Assembly (NCBI GenBank): GCA_011800805.1
Contig: MPNW01000026.1
Coordinates: 164,026-228,025 of the forward strand
Source: Hirudo medicinalis
Lineage: Eukaryota > Annelida > Clitellata > Hirudinida > Hirudinidae
Length of the DNA: 64,000 nt
Reading direction: 5' to 3'
Part shown: piece after piece, positions 38,501 to 63,740 of the stretch
Layout of the letters: each line of letters begins with the position of its first letter
How positions within the stretch are numbered: the first letter of the stretch is position 1
Notes under the pieces: generated by a model
Told to the model about the DNA's origin: nothing
Database searches by the model: none
What the model saw: the letters and a program-made list of their open reading frames with translations, nothing else
Translations under genes and position numbers: made by a program

Positions 38501-41500
38501 GAATATCGAGCAGTTCGTATCTGAACGATGATAAATCTTGCTTGAGTTCGTTCACGTCGTCTTCGCTGACGCCGTCAGAGATGGCTTTCTTCTGTCTCTT
38601 CATGAGGTACCTTTTCACCAAGTCCCTGATGACCGCCTGTGCACAACACTGATCGTTCAAATCGCATTTCGTGTTGCTTAATCTAACATCACTTTTTGAT
38701 GTGTTACTGTATCACCACACATCGCGGTTTAAGATTCTTCAATTTTCATCTTAAGAAGGAGCTTTATCAATCGATTTAAAAAATGTAAATTGTCTTTCGA
38801 GTCTTACTTGGTAAATGACGTCTCTCTCTTGAATTTTTTTAACTGCCTTCTGAAAATCGAACATTCAAACATAAATAACTAATTACAACCAATACATTAG
38901 CTATGAATATGAATTTTATCAAATTTCCAAAGCTATGGTAATTTTTTAAAGGTTCTAATCATTTCTTTGCAAATGCTCACTCTCAAACTCTGCCATTTGT
39001 TTGTCTTGGCCTTCTTCGTGCATCGGCAGAAGCGATTCCATATCCACCTGGAAAGATACCAGCAGGATTTGGGAGTAGGAATAACATTAAACGGAGCTGG
39101 AACTGTACCCCCCTCTTCGAAGTAACTCATCCAAAGTCGTGAACGTGCAAACTTCCACTCTGTGTCGGCATCGTCCTTCCAATCATAAAATTCCGATGAA
39201 AATTATTTATGCGAGTAATTTAGATCAATTTCACATGAATGATTTGAATTGCATATTTATTTTTATATCCGAACAGATGGCGCGAAAGATATCCTCAAAA
39301 ACGCACAGAAATCTTCTGGAAGGAACTGCTCAGCATGGCGATGAGCATGTTAATGAGGACGATTGTCATTATTCCCATGTAAGTGCCAAACATGAGCTTC
39401 CCCACAAACTGAGTAAAAATATGCTTCTCTTTCAATTCGAATTTCGAAAGTTCCACCAGCCCGTAAATGGCAAAGTACAAAGTTTGAATTATTTCAAACA
39501 AGCTGAAACAAACTTGCATTTAGACAAATGAATGGCATTTAAAACAAGCAACAAATATACAATACATATACAACAAATATACTTGGCGATGGATCGATCG
39601 CATAGCCCATGACAATCGGATATCTGATTGGAAACATCTGCCAGTCCAGAGTTCTGTTTCTGGAAGTGCTTGGCCTCACACTCGTTGCAATCTCTGCTCC
39701 TCACTTCTGCGTAGTACCAGTACAATTGGTTAACCCCGCATGAATACGAGAAACAGACGAGCAGAGCGATGAAGAGGAACTTCATTATATCGATGACCAT
39801 TCTGCCCAAAGATATTTGTAGAGGACCGAGGTGTGGATTGACGGTGAAGAGAGCGATAAGCTTGAGACAGCTAAAAATGTTGGCACTTGCGAACAGACCT
39901 TCAGAAATCAACGTTGGATCGTAGGCATCCCAAGACTTTCTGCTGGCAGAGGCGGTTTGAAGATCATTGCGTTTCTCCTCTTGAACCTGAAATGTTAAAA
40001 TTTGTATCGATCGCATTTGTGCTGGTCAGAAAGCCAATGTTTGACCTTAAGATAGGCGACCAATTTCAATGTATATGTAGCTATGTAGAGAGAATTGGTT
40101 GTAAAATCCAAAATGTTCCACATGTCCTGAACATATGATTTCAATCCCTGATCCCAGAGTTGTTTAATTTCAGCCCAAACAAGTCCTTTTAATTGATTAT
40201 ATTGCGTCGGCATATAAATTATTGATACTCACATTATTTTTACTTTATCCAATAAAATACACCTTTAAAACCAACCAGTGACGTAAGCTAAAATCATCCA
40301 CTCGATGCTGGTTGGTGGTGCTCCTCTCACCTCTCTTGTCATTTTAGTCGACGAATCATTGGAATCGTTTTGCAAACTTATGATGGACTCGATGCGCTGT
40401 GAAGCCAGTATCAGAAGAACTGAAATATAGACAAGTTTTCTAAGACTTTTGAGCTATATCGCCATCACCATGTCGTCTAACATAGAAAGGTCATGTAGGA
40501 AGCACTGTGACAGATGAACTTGATGAATGGTCTCCTCATGAACTGCCCAGTTCTGCTCTTCGGAGCTACGATGTAGATGATTGAGAGCACCGGGAAAAGA
40601 AGAGAAATGAGAATCGTTAGGAGAACCTTGAAGATTATGTGCCGTCTTCTGAACCCCAGCAACCCTTCGTACCAAATAGAAGCCAGTAATTGCTGACAGT
40701 TGGCATGAGACACAAACTGTTACGGACAACTTTTGTAAAAATCCAATCATTTATCATGCTTTATTAAGCATCGTTTAAAAGTTTTAACCTTTTTCTGCTT
40801 GTATTTTATGGCTAATTTTAATCTGGCCAAATCCATTCTGTCTCCTCTGTCTCTCACGGGACTGTATCGATCGTAATTGAGTAGAATTTCCAGTTCTTTT
40901 GAGCCTCTTACCTGATCCAACAGGTCGACAGCAAAATCCTGGCATTGCTTGGCCAACGACTCATATTCGATCTGCAAAATTAACAGAATTTTCTTATGAA
41001 TAATTTCCCATTCCTAAGTAATATCATTTGTTTCCTGAAATCATCTCAGCATTGATCCTTGCTTTTAATTCGTTTTCAAGTTGGCTTAGACGTCGGAGTT
41101 CCCAGCTCAATTCGAGGCCGTCAAAATTGGATCCTTGCTGGAAAGTGCCATCAGGGAAGGACTCGCAAGTGCCCGGTAAGCGTTGATTCTGGACATGGAG
41201 TGGTTGAGGCTGTCTTCTGACGATTTTTGGACGCAATCGTCACAGCTGCATCTTATGTCGTGAGGTTTGGCGATGCGATCCCCTCTGGTATTAATAATGT
41301 CGATTAGGCATTTTAAATTATTTCTTTTGAAATTGATCAATTGATATTAGAAACCTGTCGAGTAGAATCTTCGTGATTTCGTAATTATCGCGTTGAGCTG
41401 CGAGAATAATTGGTGTGATGTCGGGCGTAAAGCAACTGGAACTCACAGATGATGTCGTCTGCAAGAATGAGGATTTTTTTAAACTCCAGAAATAGATTAA

Positions 41501-42305
41501 ATAAAGAAATAGTTTAAATCATTTAACAAATTTAATACTTATTTATCTATAAATAGAAGTTAATATAAACATAAATAACATGAAATATTTAAATACCCGT
41601 CCACGAATTGTTTCATTTAAAGGAAATCGTCCATTCTACTCAAACTGAGAAAGCAAACTTGCAACACAAACATGCAACCGGTGGAACTTGTTTCCAGAGA
41701 GCAACCTGATGGTGTTTGCTTAATGCCTCTTTTATTTTCTACCATCGCACGAAAATTTCGAAATTGTACAACAATGAACTCAAAATTGGACTCGCGATAG
41801 ATGGGGAATTTTTGGAGATAACTATTACGCTGTGCGTTGTGTTAATAATTGACATAGTAATATTATTATTATTAGTTTTTACAATTATTTACTGTAATTA
41901 ATCAATAATATTTATTTATTTTTACTATTTTTATGTTTCTTTTATTATGTTTAATCACTAGAATCCAATGAGAGGAAATCAAGAAGTTTGGCGAGGAAAA
42001 TATTCATTATTGTGAACTTAAATGTTTATTGATTTATATATTTATTGATCTCTTGTCTGCTTATTGTGCTTATTGCTATAAAAAAAACAAATAATAATAA
42101 ATAATAAATAATTACACAACTCAAACAACATGAAATGGAATGAGAATTTGACAATGAAAACTACTGCATATAAACTCATGAGTTTGAAGGAATATTTTAA
42201 TTAACTGCTCAGAATTCACAGCAGGTTGGAATTCCAGTACGTCGGTAGAATCTCAGTGGTGATCATGTCAATAGTAATAATAGTAATAACAATAGCAAGA
42301 ACAAC

Positions 42306-42380
<75 letters not shown>

Positions 42381-45300
42381 TTAATTATTAATTAATAATA
42401 ATAATAATTATTATTATATCAAGCACAGGAATAAAAAAAATCATAATGGTATCAATAATACATCCTGAGTTTAATCTCCTTTATCAATCGGTCATCATGA
42501 AATCCACTTTCGAGAGCAAAGATATCTCAAGAATTATTTCTCAATTCAAACAAAAGCACTAGAAAATTCTTCCGTGGAAGCGAATATTATATATATATAT
42601 AATTACCAATATTGTATTTATAAACACTAAGATTGTATTTATATATACTAGTATATATTTGTATACACTAACATTATGTTTCATCAAAAATCGTTGCAAA
42701 CGTCGTCTTCAATGTTCGGTCACAAAAGATTCAATTTCAGTATTTTGAGTAACAAACGTCAATCAACAAATGGAGAATAAAAGCAAATTATTTATGCGGT
42801 GTTGAATTTATTTAAAAAATAAACTGCTTTTATTTGAGAAGATAAGTTAATGACATGCTTTGTTGACAAGAAAGATAAAGAATAATGTGTAGAATAGTAA
42901 TAATAATAATAATAATAATATTATATAATAATAATGTCGTAATAATAATATTATTATTATAATAATAATATTAAAATTAAAATAATTTTATTTTTTAATA
43001 ATTTATTAAAATAATAATATTATTATTATTATTATTATATATTATAATATATAGTACATTAATATACATTATAATATAATATAATATACTATAATATATT
43101 ATTATTATTACAATATAATAATGTAATAATAATTATATTATATTAATATACATTATAATATAATATTATATTATATTATAACATTATAATATAATATTAT
43201 AATATAATATTATATTATATTATAATATAATATTGTTTTTATATAATATTATATAATATAACATAATATTATTTATATTATTTTTATACTATTTTATTAC
43301 TATTATTTTTGACGTTTTAATTATTATATAATTATTATATAATATTTTATTATTATATTATAATAATTATTATATTATTATAATATTATATAATATTAAT
43401 ATTATATTATATATACATACATATATAAATATGATATATTAATATAATAATATTATATTATTATTATTATTATTATATGGTGTAATATTAATAATTGACA
43501 ATTAAATTTCTAGTTATAAGTATAATGTTATCAATAAAATGCACCAGTGTTGCGATATAATCCTTGGATTTTATAAAATTCAACTGACATAATTTTAGCA
43601 TTAAAATATTTTCCCTGGCTTTGTTCTTCTTGAAGTTTTCGTATTCATTTCAAGATAAAGGGTTTGATTGTAAAGCCATTATTAGATGTTATACGTCGAT
43701 GAGAAATTTAGGTTGAGATAAGTAGGACCAATTCCATCAATAATCATTTATTAGTAATACATAACCAATAACCCTAATCACCTTTAGGTACCTTTAGCTA
43801 AAGCCCTAACCCTAACCTTAATCGCAACAAAAAGCAAAGCGTCCATTATTAGTCTTAAACATAAACGTTATAATAAATTATAAATTCTAACCTTTAACCA
43901 TAGACTTTAAAACGTCAAAAATACCAGACCTCCTCCAAGTAAACAGAACTAAAGATTGTCTTTTTAAAAAAAAAGGGAACAAGCCGCCAATGAAAACTCA
44001 GAAGTTTGTAAAAAGTTAAGTGAATATTTGGTTGATCAATTATTTTAAGCGTTATTCTACACACGAAAATATGTATGATCTCTTGTTGAATTCGCCAGTG
44101 AAGTTTTAAATATTATTAATTAATTAACATATTAAAATTAGTTAATTATGTGTTTATCCCAGAATTTATGCACGAATTCATCAACAATTTAATTGATCTA
44201 AAGGCTCTCAAAACCTTTAAGTTCAGTTCTTTCGACCAATCGAAAATTGTAAGCTGAAATTATTTTAAAAGTCATGAATATTCATTTTAAAAATGCATCG
44301 ATATCCAATTCAATTCATCGATATGAAAACATCGGTTATGAAATATCTACTGAACAACCTTCGCTCCTCTAAAAATATGGAAACCCAATTTCAATGAATC
44401 ATGGAATCACACCCAAGGAAACATGGAATCCTTGCTGTCGACGCTCGTCCACTTCTTCATCGTCAGTTTCTTCCATTTGGCTGTGATTTTGGCTGCCTTC
44501 TCCTGTGAGGAATTATATCATAAAATAGCGAATGATTTTTTCCTTTTTTTTTGTTTTTAATGTTTTTTAATTTGTTTTGTCTTTGTTTCTAATCAGCACG
44601 AGAAGAAAAAGAATTATTTTGAATTGATGAACATTTCTGTGACTTACTTTTATTACATTTTCGATTCCTTCAGAAAGCTAAAAAAACATTCAAATGAATT
44701 AATTTCACGTTATTCATTCTTTAAAATGAACGAATCCAATTCTACAACCCTCGCGTGGTTGATAATAAAAATTTAAAAAACAACCGGTATCACAATGACA
44801 TCGTAATCTGGGATGAAGTGCGTGCAATATTGTAAGAATACCGCATGAATAATATTAATTACATTAATTATACAAAGGAAAATAACAAGGAACTCAACAG
44901 AAATCCGAACCGAATAAGAGGACGGTTGACTGAAGGATCGTTTGATGTTTCTGGAGGAGGAGAGTTTTTGTTCGTGGTTGAGGATGAGTCTGGTGGCTTC
45001 AACGTTGTCCTCGTTGATCGCTTGGAGTAAGGAGTCCCCCAGGTCCAACCCTGCCTTGAGGAGGGCATCCAACATCTCGATGTTGTCGTACTCAATCGAT
45101 ATCCCCAGAGCTGTTCTTCCGAGAGTGTCCACGCAGTTTGGATTAAATGTTACCTTATGCGAAAGATTTACAGTTGAAACTAATTATCATCATCGTCATC
45201 GTCATCGTCGTCGTCGTCATCATCATCGTCATCATCATCATCGTCATCGTCGTCATCGTCATCATCGTCATCACCTTCTGCTGGTGCAACATCCTTTGAA

Positions 45301-45532
45301 CACTCGGAATGTCCCCGCGTTCGACAGCCAAAAGGAATTGCCTTTCCTGTGGCGTCAGATCCATTTCTTTCCTGACAACTCCTGATCCAAGGCCGTTCCA
45401 TCCCGGTGACAAATCATGCGGAACGAGTGTGACGGGTGAGTGCACGGCTTCCTCATTGGATGATTCGAAAACATTATTTTGCTGGAGTATTTGATTGTTT
45501 GGTTTTTTCTTTGTTATTGGACTCCGCTCCAT
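35557..45532 (-). CDS. TRPC/TRP-type cation channel (one-base frameshift in exon 6)
   Basis: Sixteen exons: 45532-45275, 45153-44911, 44677-44648, 44502-44413, 41458-41355, 41284-41063, 40971-40789, 40716-40482, 40419-40276, 40185-40046, 39986-39583, 39502-39307, 39175-38981, 38849-38808, 38636-38447, 36053-35557. They would give about 1057 residues. N-terminal ankyrin repeats, the TRP_2 region (C-S-C-D-D-C-V...[13 protein letters not shown]), six membrane segments, the pore loop (L-Y-F-A-I-Y-G-L) and the TRP box E-W-K-F-A-R are all visible. The closest remembered pattern is insect TRP/vertebrate TRPC: Ca-permeable channels opened downstream of Gq-phospholipase C. Near 41116 the frame shifts by one base inside a conserved stretch. 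Exons 3 and 4 are small and less certain. The last intron carries a LINE fragment. The intron after exon 6 is GC-AG. Confidence 0.9.
36175..36245. repeat. Dispersed repeat, copy 2
   Basis: Diverged second copy of the repeat at 712-790, with the same block order (aacattaattta, ggtttaagta, actaatgtctgt, aagccac). It lies in the last TRPC intron. Confidence 0.55.
36340..37120 (-). mobile_element. LINE endonuclease-domain remnant in the last TRPC intron
   Basis: The minus frame 36782-36504 reads [10 protein letters not shown], then I-T-G-D-F-K-Y, then [18 protein letters not shown], the apurinic-endonuclease motifs of CR1-like LINEs (usual V-G-V-C-Y-R-P-P, G-D-F-N, Q-H-V-x-x-P-T-R). Upstream on the same strand (37110-36800) A-N-A-K-S-I-V-N-K is the usual N-terminal motif. 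Frameshifts throughout, so it is dead. Confidence 0.8.
42306..42400. repeat. (AAT)n microsatellite
   Basis: More than 20 near-perfect aat units in the large intron between TRPC exons 4 and 5. Confidence 0.95.
42890..43480. repeat. A/T-only low-complexity block
   Basis: About 590 bases almost devoid of G and C, made of att/aat/tata words with short palindromes, in the same TRPC intron. It has no coding potential. It would be a fragile, hard-to-assemble region. Confidence 0.9.
45183..45274. repeat. (GAY)n trinucleotide tract in TRPC intron 1
   Basis: About 30 GAT/GAC units on the minus strand (atc/gtc on the plus strand), starting directly at the exon 1 donor CAGAAG|GTGATG. It would read as poly-Asp or Met/Thr in translation but lies between a donor and the exon 2 acceptor cataag at 45154. 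Confidence 0.85.
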
Positions 45533-46199
45533 GCTGACCTCATCTTTCTATTGGGAGTTATATTTAGTAAAACTTATAATAATATGTGCACATATTTACT
45601 TATAAATGGAAATTAAGAATTGTGATCAAACAGCGAATAATGTTTCATGTGCATGTTTGAATTGTTCTCAGTTGCTGTTGAATGGGAATATGACTCGAAT
45701 TCAATTCAACTCAACCACGAAATTGAGGACGAAATTTTAAATGTTGTGAAAAGACGAATCATTTGCCAGCGAATGATCACCATTTTATAACTGAAACCAT
45801 CGGAAAGAATTGGAATGAATTGAACTCTTAAAAATATCGCCGATGCGAATTTAATAAATTATTATTACATAATTAATGACTTGTTTGAAGCATCAACATT
45901 GAAGATCATAATCACTGAAATCTCTCATGCCTCGTCAGCTCCACACAACTCAAACAAATTAACTACCATCTTTCAGTGCTAAAAAATCTCTGTGAAAATA
46001 CATTTCTCAATGTCATTAATTTTACAAATTCTTAAAATATCATTCTAATGTCAAATATTAATTTGATATAATCGTTTAATTTTCAATAATAATGATTTAT
46101 TAAAAGCAGCACTTGAATGCTGTTGATGACATTCAATAGTTACACAGATATTAAACATTATTCATGCAAGTATGAATCATTATCAAACATTAATGACAT

Positions 46200-51827: not shown

Positions 51828-54152
51828 ATTATTGTTATTATTATTCTATTTATTTTGAACATCTGAAAAGGGAAACATTAAAAATAATATGATTTCAAAA
51901 TAAACTAATTTGACACTCAAGGACAGCCAGAAGGGATATTCCCCACTGAAGTGGCTGTCTAAAACAAAGCAAAATTATTTTTCAAAACAGTAAGGGATCG
52001 AAACAATATTTATCGAAATCAAAGCAATATTTATATATTATCACCGAAGAAAGGCACTAAAAATCGATCGGTCTGCGAATGCAATCGAATAAATTGCTAA
52101 TTAATAGTATGCTCGACTACCCTCTCTTCATGAGCTCAAACATTCCCTCCCTGCCAAGCGAAGTGGTTCTGTCGATCCATCCGTTCTCGCTCGACAGCTG
52201 GTCCAGTCCACGGCTGAAACGATATTCTTTCGATTCATTTCCATCGAACGAGCGATCGAGCGAGCGTGCTACTCACGCATTTATGGCCGGCAAGAAAAGA
52301 AAGTGGGGAGCCAAAAGTTTGTAGACCGGATGGCTCGGGGAGAGCGTCCGATGCATTGCCACGCAAACCGACTCCATGACCAGGTGAGTGAAACCTAAAT
52401 TAATGTTTGTCAAGTTCCAGTCAATTAAGAAATGTCAATTTTTATTTTATATCATTTTGTTTTGAAACTTAAAAATGAAATAACTAACAGAAGTGGCTGA
52501 GAGCCTGATGGACTGCTGCATCAGCATTGTTGAACCACATTTTGGCCAGGAGCCAGGTGAAAGGAGGGTCATTTGGAAGGAATACCTGATTTATTTACAA
52601 GTTATAATAACTCATCAATGTCTCATAAATAAATTGCTCACACTCACTGGGTTATTAGGAGCTATATCTTGGAATAATTGAATGGCTATGGGAACGAACT
52701 GTTTATCTCCCGTCAGAAAGAACAACCCGATCGGAGCGCACACCTAAGAGGTTCAAGTTATTCGCCCGTGAAACCATTCATTTTGAAAGTCCTCTGAGCT
52801 TACCTGACGACCGGGCATGCAAGCGATGTTTTTAAGGATTTTCAAGTCGACGATGAAAAGGCGCTTGGCTTCAATGATTTGCTTCATACTCCAACCTTCC
52901 AAAAACGGTCTCAACATTTCAGCTGTAACACCCAAGCTGCAAACATCCACTAATTTAAATCTTTTCGTGTCTTTATTTTTAAAGAAATGCTTCGCACTTT
53001 TCTGGTAAGTTGTTGCACAACTGAACCATTGCCGGGTTGCATCCGATCAATCTTTGAGCTCCAAAACACAAATCGTTACTCCATCGATCGATTCCCTGAA
53101 ATTTGAAATCTTCGTTTTTAAACTATTGTTTCTGAATTTAATAGACAACAGTAGACAACTAATAATAATTTCTAAGTTATTCAAATGTTAAAAATACATA
53201 TCATGCAAATATTTTCCAATTAAAGATGTAAATGGTTCGTAATGATTTCAAAATAATGAGGTGCTGACAACAGGTTCGGGAAGTTCGGGCACGTAGATTC
53301 CCAAAAGTTCTTCCAATGAATCCCACTGAGTGGAAGGAAGTTTAGAGAGGCCAGCCTTTGTTAAAACTTGGAACTGGGAGTTTATGATGTCCCACTGGTA
53401 AATTAAAGTAAATTTTAAATTAAAGATTAATTCTGAAGGTTCTTCTTTGGTAAGCCTACCTTGTATTCATCTGAAAATTGTTCTGATGGAGGTAACGTGC
53501 CCACCTGGATGTCATGCAAAATGTATCTCAAGATCTTGTAAAGAATTCAACAACTTGATTCCAAAACAAACTTGGACTGGAAGATCAGGAGCTGATTGAC
53601 CATATTGGTAGGCATCCTGTTTAAGTCTCAGTTCATCTGCTCTTTGTTCTTTGTTTGGATCAAACTGAGGTAAGAAGGAATCATTAAGCTCGATTTTGTA
53701 GGTTTGATCTGGCAGGATCCATCTGCAATTAACCAGTTGTGTAAAAATAATTTCCAATATTCACTCTTCCAATATTCATGCTTGAGCATGTACCTCAGAA
53801 CTGGAAAATAAAAACATTTTTCTGATTGGCGATTATTTACCAAAATGTATTCGCAAAACCAGTCGAAACCATCTGTATTTTCACCGAAGTCATCGTCTAA
53901 CTTCTCTCTCGAGATTTCAACTCTTGCCATTTCAGAAAAGCCATTGAGTGAAACTGCTTCAAAAACATCGATTTTACCGCGTTCGAAGAGTGTTTCAAAT
54001 TTCAGATCAAGCTTTAAAGCGTTGCTCGTTTTTCCGTTCACATCCTGCAATTTGACTCGGAGCTTGATTTGAGAAAGTTGTCCTTTAACGTCGCCTGTCT
54101 TCACGTACAAAAAGTGATCGATTTTGTTCGGAGGTTCGCAACAGTTGCCCAT
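50307..54152 (-). CDS. PLAT-domain lipoxygenase
   Basis: Sixteen exons (54152-53794, 53722-53572, 53504-53460, 53394-53272, 53095-52998, 52936-52804, 52743-52648, 52585-52489, 52394-52277, 52213-52121, 51715-51628, 51590-51485, 51414-51323, 51086-50880, 50655-50492, 50427-50307) all join in phase to 696 residues. An N-terminal PLAT/LH2 domain (1-130) precedes a full catalytic domain. Iron ligands are seen at His361 and His366 (H-Q-A-L-S-H), His573 with Asn577 ([10 protein letters not shown]), and a C-terminal carboxylate, here Val696 in I-P-N-F-I-S-V rather than the usual Ile. It adds O2 to polyunsaturated fatty acids. The N terminus M-G-N-C-C resembles a myristoyl/palmitoyl site, suggesting membrane attachment. 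One intron is only 37 nt. Confidence 0.95.
51591..51627 (-). other. 37-nt intron in the lipoxygenase gene
   Basis: On the minus strand GTTAATACATG...TTTTGTTGCAG separates V-A-F-K and L-L-D-L-R-V. Reading through would break the frame (37 is not a multiple of three), while removal restores the conserved D-Y-G-Y-R-D-D block. It is near the lower limit for a spliceosomal intron. Confidence 0.75.
51772..51830. repeat. (ATT)n microsatellite
   Basis: About 18 att units in the lipoxygenase intron between exons 10 and 11. Confidence 0.9.
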
Positions 54153-56150
54153 GTTTTGTTATCAATAAATCTGAGTTAAATGAATCTTAGTGGTCGAAAA
54201 CTTTTACGACACTTCGTCCGGATATCGCGATAATCACACAGGTGAGCTTCCCTGTTTACATGTTTACCAGGTGATATATTGCAGATATTTGTTTTACTTT
54301 TATGTTGTTACATATTTCACAAAACTTAACTTACAAACAGGAACAACTTAAATTTTTTATTTTACATTTTACAGACTAAAAATTCCTGTTTTTTTTAAAC
54401 AGTTATGAATTGTTCGGATGGGGAAGCATTAAGATTTGAAATTTTATTTTGTGCCAAAGAAAAGTTTATTGTAGATAGGCTAATCTTTGCTTTAGCTCTA
54501 ACGGAGCTTAGCCTTTCAAATCAGCATAGGCTAGTTGCTATTTCGTAGCATTTATAAATTTGTCATCGTTTTTATTAACACTATTTAGTTAATTATATAG
54601 TTAATAATAATATAATTATATTATTATAATTAACTAAAACTTCCGTCACTTGAAAAGTCACATTTCATAGTCAAAGTTCGGTAACTGCTAAGTTCAGACT
54701 ATCTGCTATGAAATCTTGGATATTTCTTTATGTCGTTATTATCTTGGATCGCTCGCTTGCGGGCATCCGAAACATTCGTTATGTGGGAGAAAATGTTCCA
54801 AAGTTCTATTAAGAAAAAGGATCGTCGAAGCATTGAGTCGTGTTCGAAGTTACTTTAACAATTCATTATTTTGATTAGATATGTAGTCCATAATTTAGTC
54901 CGACATTGGAATAAATCAGAGAAAATTACAAATAAAAAACACAAAAACACCAAATTAATAAATATTTTTAAATTCACCGATAAAGAAAGATGCAATTATG
55001 CCTAGATAAGTTAAAAGGAATTGATAGGCGGAAGCTTTTTTTTTAATTTACAAATCAACTGAGCCTAGAAGCAAGTGTTTGGTCCAATGGTCACCGAAAT
55101 ATATAAAAGCAGGAGAATTATTTTATCACTTCAGATTGCATTGCAGGTGAATTCCTGCTGTTGAGAAATTAACTTAATTTTTAACGTAACGGAATTTTAA
55201 GTTCAGAAAGCGACTTTAAGGAAATTGCCTGTGGAACTGGAGAGACAGTCGTTCGCGTTGCCGCTGATAAGGAAATATTGCACTCGACTGCAGTATATAG
55301 CTGTCAAGACTTACATAAAAAAATTAAGAGCCCACTCATTTTTCAGGACATCGCTTGCCTTAACACCTAACCAAAGTAGTTTCGTTTAATTTTGTACGTA
55401 CTTGTACATGGCAGTTTATCTAATTTCTTAACTTTATCCAACTAAATCGTTGTAGTGCTTCTAGATAATAATAACAAATAATAGATGAATAAATATTAAA
55501 TAAAGAAATCAAATTTAAAAGTCGACATTTCATTGAAACCCATAAAATTATTTTACATGGTTGATTTAGTTCAGGATTTCAATTGGCTGGTAGTCTAGAA
55601 TTACAAGACTATTTTCAGACGGACTCTGTAATGAATAATTAATTACATTTACTTGCAGAATTACATTCATAAATATATATTACGAACAACAGATGATAGG
55701 TACCTATGAGTTCCAATGGAAATTTACAAATGAACGAAATCAGGTCGTATTTTGTGTCCAAGGTTTGTGTTCACTGCTTTGATAAACATGCTTCCACGTG
55801 TAAAGAAATATCTGATAATGAATTATTTACTCACTTTGCTTACTTTTTGTACCCAGTGTCGAAATGGACGATGATGATGAATACAGGCAAAGTGAAATTT
55901 CCTATTTGCATTATTAATAATTAATTAAATAATTACCATCTAATGAGACAAGTTGAATAAAGAAAGATTAACTAACAAATTACTCAAGATGTTTGAAAGT
56001 GTATTTCATCAATAAAAAAAAATTATAATATGTTTAACAACAACAATAATAGTAATTGTGAACTGCACTTTTAAAAGTAAACAATTTGCTGCCATCACTT
56101 TTTATATTATGATTATTATTATTAACTTTATTTATCATGCTCCCTGAAAG
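54153..56150. other. Spacer with the lipoxygenase promoter region
   Basis: No gene is well supported. A TATA-like atatataaaagcagg lies at about 55098 on the plus strand. About 110 bases downstream a 60-codon basic frame without ATG (55206-55389) follows an acceptor-like ttcag; this is too weak to call. A/T palindromes occur at 54580-54645. Confidence 0.4.
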
Positions 56151-59100
56151 CTAAAACTCGAAGCAATAAATGTTGCCAGATGTCAGCCCGACAAATAAGA
56201 GATTTTCTAAAATGTAAATGCTTGAAGGGGCAGTAATTCCATCGCTGACGTTGAGAATTTCAATGGGAGCGGATCTGATGAATCGGTCGACACGCATGAT
56301 TTTGTTTCCTCCTGCATCGGCGATTAAGATTCGTCCCGAAGGAGAATGAACAGCAACGTCTGAAACTTTGTCGAAAGGCGCGGCACCAAAGCCGGAAGAC
56401 ATGAAACCATCGTTATCCAGCATGCAGAGTTCCTGGGGACTTGTCGAATAAATAGAGCCGTGGAGCACTAAACAGTGCATTTCGTCAACTTTGAATGCCT
56501 TCCATGGACCTTCAGTTATGCTTCCACACTTCAAACAAGATAGCTTATTGCCTTCGCTGTCGTATTCCAGTGCAATGTATTCCGAACTGCAGCAACCAAT
56601 GAGAATGGTATTTTTATAGGTGATTGACAAGCTAATGGCTTCCTCGGGAACCTTCCAGGATCTTGTGATCTTTTGGCGTTGAACGTTTATTTGAATTACA
56701 AGAGACTGCCCAACATCCAATGCGTACAGGCATTGCATAGCGGTACTAGAAGCGATACTTTTTAACTTGTTGCTGCAAATCTTAATCGGTTTCAAGGTAC
56801 CTATCTTTTCTCTACTCACTAAATCTTTGTTTTTGAAGTATGTCTTTAGTTTAGACTTAGTACTCGGTCCTAATCTGATTGACTTGAGTTGATCGAAATT
56901 TTTTTGCATATCGTAACGCTTGATGGAGCTAGAATACATGAAAATGGCATATAGAATACCGGAGAGTGAAGCTAAACCTTGGACAGGTTTTTTGCATGGA
57001 ATCATGTGCTCGCTTTTATACTTTTTTGCAAACGTATCTGTAACATTTAATTACTAAAATAATTGAGAGTTATAGTAAGGGTCAACTAAAACTTACCATC
57101 ATTCTCTTGAGGCATGTATTGAGTGAATGTAGAAAGTTCAGCCATGTGTGGTCTTTTGCACTCTTCCAAACTAAGGCATTTTTCAATCGTGTTTTTAAAT
57201 ACTGGATAATTCATCAAGTGCATGTTCAAAAAACTTATTATGCTGTCCTCTTGGGCGTTTGACAGGAATTGTATTATGTCCTTCTGAGTCATTTCTACGA
57301 TTTAAAAGTTAAATATAATTACATTCCAAGAAATTCTTCATAATTTGTTATATATTTATCTGGTATTATTTATATCACACATTGCTACCTTGTAAATATA
57401 AAGAGTTCTGTATCAGTTATTTTGCGACTTTTCTCTAAAAACTCAAATTATTTCAATGGATACAATTGGTTCAAGAAAAATACAAGTCAATCACAGTCTC
57501 CAGGAAAATGTTGCTCGATAATTCAAAGCGATTTGCAAAAATCATTCGAGATGATTTGCATCTCGTCAACGTCACGAACGTCAAGGATGATCGATTTTAG
57601 ATTTTAGTGAAATGTGGTTTATTCAATGGAATTATTTGATGTGGAGCGTTAATGTAAAGCTATTTTCTAAAGGTTTAACAAAAGTTATTCTGTATATCAT
57701 GAAAGGAGTAGCACATAAAGTAATTCAGTGATCTTTCAAAGTTCTTTCAAAGCTTTTAGCGAGCGAAGTGTTGCTAATTACTTTCAAATTCGGACACGAA
57801 TATAAGGACGACATCCACTGAGTAGTTCCTGGTTCGCTAATTTAGATTCTGTGAATCAGCAACACCAATAGTAATTGTCGCCAATTATTAAGAGAGATGA
57901 ACATTGAAATTAAACCAGTGTGGGGAACAGAAAATCACGGAGCTAATAAAAGAATTACGTTTTATTTGTAACAATTAACGGTTAATATTCTCTAGAAGAG
58001 CCTGTAGAATGTTCACACATTTCAGCATGCGATGCTGTCTTAATGGATTAATTATTGGAGAAATAATGTATTAAATTTTGCACACACTAATTCTTTCACT
58101 GTTTTCAAAATAATGACCCATCAGCTCATATGGGATGTCCATTAATTATGTCAGCAAAATAGGGTAAGGAAGGGATTTGAAAAAGTTTGAAAATTCTTGA
58201 CAAAGAAGGAGGGGGAGTTTAAGATTATTTGACGTCAACAGTGTTATTTTTATTATAAAAATCTAAATTGTAACAGAAGGATTTATAAAATTACAGTTAG
58301 TAATTTTAATTAATAATTTTGTAAACAGTTACAAACTATAAAACTTGTGTTTACTAGTTTTTTTTATAAACTGTCTTTGGTTTCGGGAATCGGCGTCCAT
58401 TTTGTTGAATACTGGACTGACAGCAGCTAACAAACAGGTTCCACTTCTGACGCATACCTTCCGTCGAATACCATGTTGTGTTTCCACATCACGACTGGGT
58501 TGCAGGAGCAGCAAGGCGAAAACCCATTCATAGGTTTATTCAAAAACATGGTCTGAAGGCAAACCTGAACCTGTAACTTATTCTGGTCCAATTTACATAG
58601 CCAACAGGTCAGGCAAGCATTCCTAATAATGATGATGATGATAAAATAATATTGTAATAACTTGTATAACTTGTATAGCGCCGTAAGCGTAAGCATTAGG
58701 GGCGCTTAGACCACACACACACATATATATGTATATATATAGCGCGTCTCCTAGAGGTGCTTTGTGGTGGTGCAAGCTGGGTTGCGAACATAACACGTAA
58801 CGACTATTGCTTTCACCGTCGCTCGCAGGAACGCAAACCCTCTGAGCCAACTTGGACCCTAATTCCTCAGTTAAAGTCATCAGCCTACACTCATGGACTG
58901 GATCACGAAAGGCTACTTGAATTTGAAGAATTGGACCTTATTTGATAAAAAAAATATGAAGGCAGTAAGTTGGTCAAACGTGTTCTTATTATGAGTAGAT
59001 GGTGGACCGGATGAAAAATCAAGACATCAAGAACTTATTGATGTGGCAATTCATCATTATCTGAAGCACAACATCGATGCATTGTTCATTGCAACAAATG

Positions 59101-62100
59101 CACCTGTTAGGAATGCATTTAATCGAGTCGAAAGACGGATGACTCCTGTGAGTCGAGAACTGTCAGGCCTAATTTTAGCTCATGAGTTTTGGAAGCCATC
59201 TTCACTCACAAGGTCGAACAATTCAGGGGCACCATTTGAGGACAACGGTCCCAATGTCTATTGTTACGATGGAGGAACTTTTGACTTTCCCATGGAAAGA
59301 TGTTAGAAGCTGACATAAAAAAATTGACAATAATATTCAGCAATTATTTTATTTACCTTCAAAATAAAATAGTCACAAATTCAAAGTGCTACAAGGTACA
59401 ATGTAAAAATTTTATAGCAAAAAAACTTTTTGGGGATTTCAATTTTGTATACATAACCTTATTAGGGGGTCTTTGAAGTTTGACAGTTGTTGACAAGGGG
59501 GGTCAAAATTATCTTAAACTTGTTGACATAATTAATGGACGAGCCCATAGCAAGCATTAATGAAAGAAAGCTGAATATTGTGACCGAAATAAAGTCTCAC
59601 TTTTATCCATATTGGTTAATTACCAACATAATTACCAACATAATTTGTGGAATTAAACAAAAAGTATTTAAAAACATTAAAGGGACACGTGGCTATTATA
59701 TCAGCCGATGATTGGTGGAATTCAGACGAGGTTTAATTTTTAAATATAATTGGCGATTATTAAACATTATTCATTAACATTCAGAAATTTTATATGAATA
59801 TAACAAATATTATTTTAATTATAATTTATTATTGTTATCGATATTACATTAGGCATCATCATTGAGAGTCTTTGTTTCGTAGAGACAGCAAATTGTATGG
59901 ACAGGAAGTACAAAAGTTAGCTGAAGAGACTTTTATAAACCACAACGGAATTCGTGTTTAAAAAAAAAGTAATCACTTGCCTGGAAATATTTTTCTACCC
60001 CTGATCCATATTTTTAAGGCAGTCAGTCCAAATGACCAAATATCAGTGGCAGAAGACCATTTGTTTCGATCAATTATTTCTGGGGCTGTACGTTCAGCTC
60101 CAGAAAGAGGTTTACCTAAGTTAAATACTCACAGTTATGTATTTATTATTTATTATTTTAAGATTTTTTTTTTGAGGAATTACTAAGAACAATTTTTTTT
60201 AAATGGAAATAATTGCAGCTAACTTTCGAGAATATAATTCCTCATTCCTAGGGTTGCAGCATTTTGAAAGTTGGTTATTTTAATGGAATAGCCGGAGTTG
60301 CAGACTATTAAGTTAGATGCAAAAATACTTCGGTGTAATATTCTGTTATCGTGCAAATATTCCAACCCGCAGGCCAGCTGTTAACAATGAAAATACTATT
60401 TATGTAGGTTCTATTGTATGTTTCTTACGAGTTGAGAACATGAAACATTAATGAATTATCATTTAATGTCACTCTAAAAGATAATCTTTTTTGTTATTAA
60501 TTTAAAATAAGTCTAAAATATGAATACAACCTGAACAATCCATTCTGTTATTGTTTCATTTGAGATACGAAATAAACCTGATTTCTTGAGAAATATGAGA
60601 ACGTTTGGGAGAACTGAGGACTCAAGTACTATAAAGATTTTGCTGGAATCATGAGGACTCCTTCCCAACAAGTTGGCAATTCTTGAATGTTTCAGACCCC
60701 TCAATAAATTAACCTCTGGAAAGTGTTCGATATCCTGGTTAATATCGAGTAGTTCTTTCATGCAGACATCTTTCGGTGGACATTCTGCAATAACAGTTTC
60801 ATGTCATGATCAATGTTTATTTGGACGAATGAGAATTATAAAAGTTGCAAGAATTAATTATTTTAATCGAATATTTTAAATTTGTGTTTATTTGTTATTC
60901 ATTGAAAAAAGTCAATCACCCAAATGTCCCTTCCACAAATCATAGGTGGAGTGGCAGTACTTCGGTAGTTTTTTTAAATCATGCAACTCATTGCTTTCAA
61001 TTATTTTTATTTCATTCCTCATCTGGATATCTTCTGAGCTTCCTTAAAATTCAAAAAATTTGTTTTCAAACTTTATTGGCTTTGTTATAATTTGTGATAT
61101 TAAAGTTTAACCTCGATTTTGATACATTTCTTGTTCGGAGGTGTATACTGGTATCCCATCAACTGAAACAATGAACGTGAATATTAACTTAAATTTTATT
61201 ACACTTGTTTTTTTTTTTCATATACATGAGATTGCAACTGACATAAGTTTGAGATGTTTAAAAGGAATAAATGATCAATTTGTGATTTATTTCATCAAAG
61301 TCGATTTCGAAGTTAACAATTTTAATCTAACGTCTTTATAATGTTTCTGCAATTTCAAAAAGACATTTTCAAAAAATATGAACGTACACAAACTATTCTA
61401 TTCTATTTAAAAAAAAATGGTGAGTTTATCGGTGTGCAGTTATTTTGATTAAATAATTGTTTTGAATAATCCTCAATAGTTTTGTATTAACAGGTAGAGG
61501 GATTGCGAAGAGCGAGAACATTGTTTAGGCCTCATCCCGATCTATGCTAAGCCATCCTTGTTGTCTGTACATTATGAAGAAACTATAACACAATTTAAGT
61601 ATATTCAGCAATTCCAAAAATTGATTTTAAAGCAACCGACCAGCATCAGAGTTTATTGAATTTTCTCGGTCAGCGAGAACATCTTCATTTTTGAAAATGG
61701 ACGAAGCAGGAGTTTTTATCCGGTTCTCGAGTATTACAATGTGGTTCTTCAATTTTTGCGTTTCCTCATTTTTAGATTTTAGTTGGTTTTCTAGATCTTT
61801 AATTTTATTTTTCAATTCCTGGAAAATTGGTTGATCAATAGTTACTTTGGTGGAAAAAGTTGAAAGTTGCCTTTCATAGAGAGGATGGCTTTCTTGATGT
61901 TCTGCAATTGTGCTTTCGTGAGTAGAATTTAATAAATATATTAATTAATGATTATTAAATTATTATTAAAGTATAAGTTATTATTAATTTCTAAAAATTC
62001 ATTAAATATAATAATATATAATTGTTTTTTCAATTATTCATAGGATAGAAGTTATGAGGCTGCAAATATGAACGTATATGAGTTTAATTTAACTAATTTA

Positions 62101-62460
62101 ACGTTGAAAGAATCACGGACCAATTTGGATCTGCTTGGAACCCTCGTCGAGTTCAAGAGCAAGCCAGGAATAATGCTCTTGTAACGCTTCCTTGAGGAGT
62201 ACAAAGGCGCTAGGATTGGATGTTGTAAAGAACTTGTCCAGCATTGTGCGACATTTATCCTGCCTCGTGCCGCATGTAATTATTTTCTCTCTTTCTTCTA
62301 TTGTTACGACTCGCTTTTCTATTAGGAAGTCTAGAATGGTTTTTGGATCAACTTCATCAACAAACTTCTTGTAAATTCCTAGCAGGCAATATTTTAATTT
62401 TTCATTGAGGTTGTTCATGTCCTGAATTAATGAGGCATCAGATTTTATTTTCGTAAGCAT
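56151..62460 (-). CDS. CARD - coiled coil - pseudokinase - NHL/beta-propeller protein
   Basis: Nine exons (62460-62121, 61901-61641, 61162-61112, 61042-60920, 60784-60531, 60377-60224, 60115-59981, 57294-57097, 57037-56151) join with matching phases into 800 residues. CARD: about 20-105 (D-E-V-D-P-K-T-I-L-D-F-L-I-E-K...L-L-K-E-A-L). Coiled coil: about 145-185. Protein-kinase fold: about 255-495, with the beta-3 Lys268 (V-C-M-K), A-P-E (405-407), D-I-W-S-F-G and the late R-P (487-488) kept. HRD reads H-R-S (358-360) and DFG reads N-F-Q (379-381), so both catalytic Asp are lost. Residues 506-800 are beta-rich with an NHL-like block (V-A-V-H...G-R-I-L-I-A-D-A-G-G-N-K-I-M-R-V). Likely a cytosolic signalling scaffold in innate immunity or cell death (inference). 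Intron 7 is GC-AG and holds a transposon with a SINE inside. The start could also be Met at 62418. Confidence 0.85.
58131..59550 (+). mobile_element. DNA transposon inserted in intron 7 of the CARD-pseudokinase gene
   Basis: Inverted ends: gggatgtccattaattatgt... at 58131, and on the opposite strand gggctcgtccattaattatg... from 59548. Between them, 58994-59306 (plus) reads V-D-G-G-P-D-E, then I-D-A-L-F-I-A-T-N-A-P and N-R-V-E-R-R-M-T-P...L-S-G-L-I-L, a stretch I associate with a transposase-like family common in invertebrate genomes (name not certain). The reading is interrupted elsewhere, and a SINE has inserted at 58655-58865, so the element is inactive. Confidence 0.65.
58655..58865 (-). 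mobile_element. tRNA-derived SINE, copy 2 (nested)
   Basis: The minus strand has an A-box-like gTTGGCTCAGAGGGTTTG and a B-box-like ATGTTCGCAACCC. The agcgcgtctcctagaggtgctttgtggtggtgca and tatagcgccgtaagcgtaagc parts match copy 1 at 27600-27845. An (AC)n(AT)n run sits at 58712-58740. It lies inside the DNA transposon, so it is the younger insertion. Confidence 0.75.
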
Positions 62461-63687
62461 AAGCAGAGAATCATTGTGAAAAATTACATTTACTCTGTGG
62501 TTGTTTACACAAACCAAAAAGCTTTCAACTTAATAATCGAATTTAAGCAAGAATTTAAAAAGGGTACTTAAGCGTAGAGCTGCCATAAGAACCAAAAATT
62601 GTGAAGTGTTACCGAATAACAATATAAAATATCATCATTTCGGGCTCCAAAACATTATTCTATTGGATATTTAAAACCAATCTAAGAAAAACCAACCTTA
62701 TGTCTTAGTGATCCTTTACTTTGAAAATTATTAAAAAGTTAATCCTAGAAAAATAAAAACACTATTTATGAACTTTACGAGATGTCATCATAAGTTGTGC
62801 TAATGCCTTGATTCTCTTGAGCCTTTAGTTATACCTTATCCTGTTATGTATTAGTTGTAGACTTGATACTGCATGCTGTCAGACACGAATTAATTTTGGT
62901 AACAGCTCGACAACAAAGATTGCCTGAGAGGCCGCCTAGCTCTGCGTTACCTACATAAAACCAAGATCACTTCCGTTCAGAAACGTGAAATTGAAGAAAG
63001 AGAGGATGTTATGTGTTATTAAAGGATGAGTAAACCAAAGCTTCCAGTATTTCAAGGATTAATATAGAAAATAAAATATACAAAGTAGTAAACCTGACCC
63101 GATCAAGTAAAATATTGAGTGCTTCATCTTTTATGTTAATATAAGCTATAATTTCTGTTTTATTGAATGTTAATGTTATTTTGTTACTAATTATAATTGT
63201 GCACATTCTTGTCTAATAGCTGAGCACGAAGTGACTATTAATTCAGGAAGCATTTATAGTCGAATATCCAAATGACTAAACTAGACATATTGTTGCGATG
63301 GCCCTCATTTTTGAGATAACATTCGCATACAAAATCTACATAAATCTACATCAGGATAATTGTTTTAATCGATTCCAATGTGATAAAATTTTGAGTCCAA
63401 AATAAAATGGGAGTCCAAAGATCGATTGAAAATTCGCTAATTATGTAATTCTGTTAGAAATCGGGGTTGAAACTACGAATTGTTTGTCAGTTTAGGGTAG
63501 TAGTCAGTAAAGATAAGCTTACAATTCTCTTTGGCTCCGAATATGTTAATTTGATGGTGACAGGTTTCTTTAGCTACGATGTAATTAATTATAATATAAA
63601 TAACATTAGTAATAAAAAATATTTTAACTACAAAATTTATAAGTATAGGCTTATAAGGGTAAAAATAACTTTCAAATCTCATCTCTA
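62461..63687. other. Upstream spacer of the CARD-pseudokinase gene
   Basis: A/T-rich sequence. No gene or repeat is supported apart from the flanking transposon ends. The promoter of the minus-strand gene should lie here. Confidence 0.5.
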
Positions 63688-63740
63688 AGGGGCCATCCAT
63701 AAATTATGTCAACAAAGTAGGGGAGAAGGGGAAAGGGGTA
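63688..63740. mobile_element. Terminus resembling the 58131-59550 transposon
   Basis: ggggccatccataaattatg followed by tcaacaaagtaggggagaagg matches the ends at 58131 and 59548 (gtccattaattatgtca, then caa/aggg). The partner end is not identified in the window, so this is a solo end or an element interrupted by the next insertion. Confidence 0.55.

Follow-up and report, generated by a model that had tools for sequence, protein, structure and literature searches.

The question raised by this locus is whether a CARD, a coiled coil, a kinase-like region and a propeller-type tail, predicted one after the other on the minus strand at positions 62460-56151 of the window, belong to one protein, and if so what kind of protein that would be. 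The window is the whole 64-kb stretch analysed here (G000:C26:164026-228025), taken from the 133-Mb, 1557-contig assembly of the leech Hirudo medicinalis, and the gene was rebuilt from its raw sequence. Judged from that sequence, a single 800-residue protein with CARD, coiled coil, pseudokinase and NHL-type tail is probably a real architecture, and it would most likely be a CARD adaptor specific to its lineage, in which the pseudokinase serves as scaffold and the propeller-type tail as sensor. To the full reading, in which one single-copy, shuffled gene encodes an 800-residue adaptor or platform of CARD, coiled coil, tyrosine-kinase-derived pseudokinase and NHL-type propeller that works as proposed below, we assign a tentative probability of about 45%.

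Nine minus-strand exons join in phase to give 2403 nt including the TAG codon, or 800 residues plus stop, which reproduces exactly the phase-compatible nine-exon model of a preliminary description of this DNA (Table 1). From first to last the introns measure 219, 478, 69, 135, 153, 108, 2686 and 59 nt. Seven of them are GT-AG and intron 7 alone is GC-AG, with the near-consensus donor CAG/GCAAGT. Exon 9 is open over 295 codons and the CARD exon over 113, for which the chance at this base composition is about 2e-10 and 2e-4, respectively, and the GC content at codon positions 1, 2 and 3 is 42, 34 and 40 percent compared to 31 percent in the introns. Intron phases run 1, 1, 1, 1, 0, 1, 1, 1. The sole phase-0 intron lies inside the kinase, and phase-1 introns are found at all module borders (CARD/coiled coil, coiled coil/linker, linker/kinase and kinase/propeller), where introns of this phase are the trace left by exon shuffling. 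Nearby splice sites can be combined in 13,824 ways, of which 144 keep the frame open, so phase compatibility alone is weak evidence for the model. The junctions within the kinase are supported by homology: Lck is collinear with residues 252-451, spanning junctions 4/5, 5/6, 6/7 and 7/8, and the last of these, across the 2.7-kb intron, falls inside a continuous match (GRKIFPEMTQKDIIQFL here, GRIPYPGMTNPEVIQNL in Lck). The joins of CARD/coiled coil to kinase and of kinase to tail are predicted from splice sites and phase.

The length of intron 7 is no argument against the gene model because it comes largely from a dispersed mobile element. With 40 of 1121 candidates scored, the region 58180-59500 returned at least 88 additional match rows genome-wide. 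Ends of similar sequence were found near 58132 and 59546, and a related end near 63685-63722. Query positions 445-675 of the element were covered by only one of the 88 match rows, so a segment that is nested, or seldom retained, may be present in this copy.

The N-terminal CARD proposed in the preliminary description is borne out by a PF00619 match of 43.7 bits at residues 31-104 of the assembled protein (Pfam cut-off 23.9). The CARD exon was the best of six CARD places in the genome, at 47.8 bits. Among solved structures (a list of 42 sequences with E of 10 or less) the nearest CARD by sequence is that of APAF-1, with E values of 4e-4 to 0.0016. The CARDs of ASC, caspase-1 and NOD1 follow at E 0.2 to 1, mixed with chance matches such as ribosomal protein S16, and the RIPK2 CARD is absent from the same list of 42. 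NCBIfam gave no match above cut-off for either the CARD exon or exon 9. A structure model of the CARD made without an alignment is all-helical and its best fold matches are CARDs, but the scores are weak and the pLDDT is 51. A coiled coil had also been proposed, and as a sequence pattern it is confirmed at residues 142-175, where 8 of 10 a/d positions are hydrophobic in one register compared to four or fewer in each of the other six. Matches of exon 2 to coiled-coil families in the Pfam scan were all sub-threshold.

The central region matches PF07714 at 100.1 bits (cut-off 23.1, residues 263-494) and PF00069 at 79.8 bits. Alignment to Lck and reading of the motifs agree with the earlier observation of a kinase lacking both catalytic Asp residues and keeping the beta-3 Lys. 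HRD has become HRS, DFG has become NFQ, and the glycine-loop region reads LPKYCHSTYDLWKG, with the usual glycines gone; the beta-3 Lys (CMKELL), the alpha-C Glu, the APE motif, DIWSFG and the C-lobe Arg (RPHM) are kept. This loss of catalytic motifs and glycine loop with retention of structural residues identifies the domain as a pseudokinase that very probably has no enzymatic activity. The solved structures that match it best are tyrosine kinases, namely EGFR (in a tandem chain) and Lck, followed by a Src/Abl ancestor, CSK, Lyn, Abl and FAK; CDK2 and ASK1 have comparable scores. No RIPK2 entry occurs among the kinase matches listed (the best 60 of 1972, and a separate list of 30 solved structures), and by our reading the TAPE and HR-x-x-x-A-S-N motifs are closer to Src-type kinases than to RIPK2. 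Within the leech genome the nearest kinase depends on the method: the genome search placed locus L015 (39.5 bits) just above L016 (38.8 bits), and rescoring of 12 kinase loci placed the Src-like L016 first (44.8 bits). By eye, L015, L022 and L023 read as SH2 proteins with kinase domains degenerate in the same motifs (HRKL/GEFD, HRNL/FNFE and HRNV/SGFH, respectively), and together they may form a group of SH2 pseudokinases.

The tail encoded by exon 9 is likely, though not proven, to be an NHL-type propeller. This assignment comes from an hhalign profile comparison with three NHL propellers from other loci of the leech genome (L037, L040 and L041), in which exon 9 aligned over 127 columns at its C-terminal end with a score of 33.3 (E 4.5e-4, probability 33%). 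The highest scores from shuffled sequences were 17.9 in 40 shuffles and 25.1 in 150 shuffles, so that none of the 150 reached 33.3. The kinase part (17.2), the CARD-coiled-coil part (13.4) and the reversed tail (14.5) served as controls. When 35 other frames were compared with the NHL profile, the best (29.6) was L011, whose flank overlaps exon 9, and the next scored 19.5. In a search of the PDB the TRIM71 NHL domain was a weak match (E ~0.1), behind one unrelated protein.

Several results weigh against the reading of the locus as one such adaptor. The tail stays under the Pfam NHL cut-off, with one sub-threshold PF01436 repeat at 12.5 bits in the whole protein and 14.5 bits for the exon alone (cut-off 20). 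The hhalign probability is only the 33% given above, a phmmer comparison of exon 9 with 151 frames from the NHL loci was empty, self-comparison of exon 9 revealed no internal repeats above shuffles, and the AlphaFold model of the tail (pLDDT 33) is not usable. The NHL-like propeller of the preliminary description is retained as probable on the profile alignment, which exceeds all 150 shuffles. The CARD structure model is likewise of low confidence. Junctions 1/2, 2/3, 3/4 and 8/9 are without homology support, and donors 1 and 3 are weak, ranking 40th and 56th among 292 GT sites scored with a generic matrix. Finally, no CARD partner was identified, and in the genome searches for the two domains no contig gave both a caspase and a CARD match.

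A coiled coil followed by a C-terminal NHL-type domain could also be explained by a TRIM-NHL-like scaffold, with a CARD in place of RING/B-box and an inserted pseudokinase, acting as a substrate- or RNA-binding NHL protein and not as a death adaptor. The genome does contain NHL frames, of which L040 reads by eye as B-box, coiled coil and NHL, and it is to three such loci that exon 9 aligns by profile. However, neither RING nor B-box is among the Pfam families listed for this protein, the confident alignment is confined to those 127 C-terminal columns, and the phmmer search against the NHL-locus frames was empty. We regard this explanation as distinctly doubtful.

The junctions lacking homology support, 1/2 to 3/4 and 8/9, are also where neighbouring genes might have been wrongly joined, a CARD-coiled-coil gene (exons 1-2, ending at a stop codon in frame near 61630) and a pseudokinase-propeller gene (exons 4-9); a separate tail is the less likely form of this alternative, which as a whole we consider unlikely. 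The number of frame-keeping site combinations leaves phase a weak argument against such a join, yet phase 1 is common to the module borders. From 56000 to 63200 this strand has 20 AATAAA sites, intron 2 included, and the copy shortly 3' of the stop codon is not diagnostic because the DNA is AT-rich. The exons on either side of the doubtful joins are nevertheless close, exons 1-4 being separated by the short introns 1 to 3 and exons 8 and 9 by 59 nt. The acceptor of exon 3 is good and the sites at both its ends are in phase; among the 292 GT sites, donor 2 takes 8th place and none outscores donor 8. Weak donors are not unusual in this gene, since the homology-supported donor 5 ranks only 85th. 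Mispredicted animal proteins are a recognised cause of spurious architectures (PMC3927609). If there were two genes, the locus would hold an ordinary CARD protein adjoining a pseudokinase gene.

At E<=0.01 a search of the genome with the whole protein returned 30 match rows, nine of them its own exons and 21 others. All 21 non-self rows fall within residues 241-494, the kinase region, and therefore no paralogue was detected for the CARD-coiled-coil part or for the tail. Relatives were also sought in a collection of 5.8 billion proteins, by a search that reaches only sequences sharing exact 5-residue words and in a collection that may include few invertebrates. The whole-protein query gave two matches (the 8000 candidates sharing most words were scored), both of them other kinase proteins by their listed Pfam domains or name. 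The propeller part gave none among 3599 candidates at E<=1 and the CARD part none among 72 at E<=10, and no relative with the order CARD, coiled coil, pseudokinase and tail was found in this collection. The absence of relatives is weak evidence, because of the need for shared words and the possibly few invertebrates. In our searches of the open-access literature, none of the titles or abstract openings listed names a CARD-coiled coil-pseudokinase-NHL architecture. Within these limits the architecture remains as unfamiliar as the preliminary description had it. The lack of a second copy or of relatives, and the mobile element in intron 7, might also suggest a decaying or non-expressed gene whose kinase catalytic residues were lost by drift. 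All nine exons are open, however, with GT/GC-AG borders throughout and the long open frame of exon 9, and the catalytic motifs were lost while the structural kinase residues were kept, which makes decay highly improbable.

Parts of this architecture can be compared with several known systems. The CARD-CC family (CARD9/10/11/14) has a CARD followed by a coiled coil and is not known to include a kinase or propeller. It shares that N-terminal order with the leech protein, in which, if the gene model is right, a kinase at residues 263-494 follows the coiled coil. In IRAK/Pelle an N-terminal Death domain precedes the kinase, and IRAK is not known to have a propeller; a death fold before a kinase is thus common to both, but the leech protein has a CARD (PF00531 is not listed in the Pfam scan), a propeller-type tail and a different kinase group. 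The TRIM-NHL layout is RING, B-box, coiled coil and a C-terminal six-bladed NHL propeller. Here the coiled coil, as a heptad pattern, and the likely NHL-type domain at the C terminus correspond, whereas the leech protein adds CARD and pseudokinase and has no RING or B-box among the 15 Pfam families listed.

RIPK2, put forward earlier as the known CARD kinase, also joins a CARD to a kinase domain in one protein. By sequence it is a poor comparator, because the leech kinase is closest to Lck/EGFR-type tyrosine kinases and the CARD to APAF-1, and the comparison is not sustained. In addition, the CARD (31-104) stands before the kinase (263-494), the reverse of the order in RIPK2, and the kinase is tyrosine-kinase-like with its catalytic residues lost and is accompanied by an extra coiled coil and tail. 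Apaf-1 is similar in having an N-terminal CARD, the closest solved CARD by sequence, then a central domain and a C-terminal propeller, to which the probable propeller-type tail would correspond. It differs in that the leech protein has a pseudokinase in the middle and a tail that is NHL-like where that of Apaf-1 is WD40. Neither NB-ARC nor a WD40 family is among the 15 Pfam families with E of 1 or less.

Invertebrates often shuffle death-fold domains. Three reports describe death-fold domains joined to new partners in amphioxus (PMC2575513), exon-based grafting of death-fold domains in lophotrochozoan RLRs (PMC8998645), and DED-TRADD-N-WD40 propeller proteins in Branchiostoma, where a death fold has a new partner (PMC8195603). 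The last of these are similar to the leech protein in their N-terminal death fold, C-terminal propeller and lineage-specific shuffling, but have TRADD-N where the kinase stands here and form expanded families and not a single copy (PMC8195603). A single kinase bearing a death-like domain is reported from Trichoplax sp. H2 (PMC6321704).

How the favoured single-gene adaptor might work can be sketched as follows. Exon shuffling would have assembled the CARD, coiled-coil, pseudokinase and propeller modules into one gene. The propeller would bind a ligand or partner and the coiled coil would pair chains, and the pseudokinase, without phosphate transfer, may serve as a scaffold or shape switch that masks or frees the CARD. 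Freed CARDs could then nucleate an assembly, recruiting a partner that carries a CARD, for example a caspase or a different CARD adaptor. Potential partners in the genome comprise 31 caspase-domain rows on nine contigs and five other CARD places; the genome also gave 11 Death-domain rows. One transcript, a propeller fold, oligomerisation, masking, partner recruitment and a death or immune role are what we infer for this protein. CARD proteins turn a sensing event into all-or-none assembly, and to our knowledge the switches in CARD platforms are NTPases (NB-ARC, NACHT), helicases or coiled coils; a pseudokinase set between CARD and propeller would add a further type. The closest precedent from experiment is mammalian Apaf-1, which recruits RIP2 through a WD40-kinase contact; RIP2 signals without catalysis, and RIP2 K47A and D146N still signal (PMC11747288). 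A propeller and a kinase fold whose catalysis is dispensable are used there, and both proteins have a CARD as well. The leech protein would combine in a single polypeptide two such parts, which in mammals belong to separate proteins and interact in trans as the propeller of Apaf-1 and the kinase domain of RIP2.

A bolder reading is a replacement apoptosome, in which an APAF-1-like CARD and a propeller sensor would flank a dead tyrosine-kinase fold that has taken over the oligomerisation-switch role of NB-ARC. If true, this would be a pseudokinase-driven new class of death-fold platform. An exon-by-exon search gave no NB-ARC (PF00931) or APAF-1 winged-helix (PF21296) match in this genome, which could result from exon splitting, divergence or gaps. 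Since the search proceeded exon by exon and the assembly is perhaps incomplete, the absence of both matches is weak evidence, and we therefore treat this reading as a very long shot.

Table 1. Features of the predicted gene and its surroundings, in window coordinates.
Feature	Position	Strand	Basis or remark
Exon 1: start codon and CARD	62121..62460	-	PF00619 match, residues 31-104 = 62370-62149
Exon 2: predicted coiled coil	61641..61901	-	Residues 142-175 = 61818-61717; heptad register; sub-threshold coiled-coil family matches
Exon 3: 51-nt linker, phase 1-1	61112..61162	-	Splice sites TTTCAG and GAG/GTTAAA; without homology support
Exon 4: pseudokinase start, glycine loop lost	60920..61042	-	
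Exon 5: pseudokinase N-lobe, beta-3 Lys (CMKELL), alpha-C Glu (EVNLL)	60531..60784	-	PF07714 match starts at residue 263; Lck alignment
Exon 6: catalytic loop HRSIFASN (HRD Asp to Ser), NFQ for DFG	60224..60377	-	Alignment
Exon 7: APE motif and subdomain IX (TAPEII, DIWSFG)	59981..60115	-	GC donor CAG/GCAAGT
Dispersed mobile-element copy in intron 7	58132..59546	.	Approximate borders, from repeat matches
Intron 7	57295..59980	-	2686 nt, GC-AG
Exon 8: kinase C-lobe end (RPHM)	57097..57294	-	
Exon 9: likely NHL-type propeller-like domain, residues 506-800, TAG	56151..57037	-	NHL motif GRILIADAGGNKIMRVD at 56336-56286
AATAAA polyadenylation-type signal, shortly 3' of stop codon	56127..56132	-	

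Elsewhere in the genome, stretches around four other CARD contigs (L046-L050) were read by eye and gave no clear partner. Of families typical of particular animal groups, arthropod cuticle (PF00379) and nematode collagen (PF01484) had no match, a negative of limited weight since neither was detected in any control genome either, whereas innexins were matched by 37 rows on 16 contigs. Around the CARD match at G000:C174:155672-155890 (L002, L047), a second frame about 700 nt upstream is CARD-like by eye. At G000:C131:78844-80461 two matches to the N-terminal half of a CARD (L004 and L006) each have, by eye, a similar second-half frame nearby, and the two are apparently tandem paralogues.

Within the window, a PLAT-domain exon at 53631-54152 on the minus strand (26.9 bits) adjoins the CARD-pseudokinase gene on the same strand and is perhaps the start of a lipoxygenase-like gene. 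Further along, at 39492-45547 on the minus strand, lie an ion-transport domain and ankyrin-like exons, which we take to resemble a TRPC channel. Two contigs carry COX1 sequences. At G000:C459:20763-22199 (L043) an intron-free COX1 has COX2- and ctaA-like frames beside it, all reading by eye in the standard code, and this contig is probably bacterial, from a symbiont or contaminant. At G000:C456:12202-13068 (L044, L045) a COX1 fragment in the invertebrate mitochondrial code stands beside non-mitochondrial-looking sequence and is likely a nuclear copy of mitochondrial DNA.

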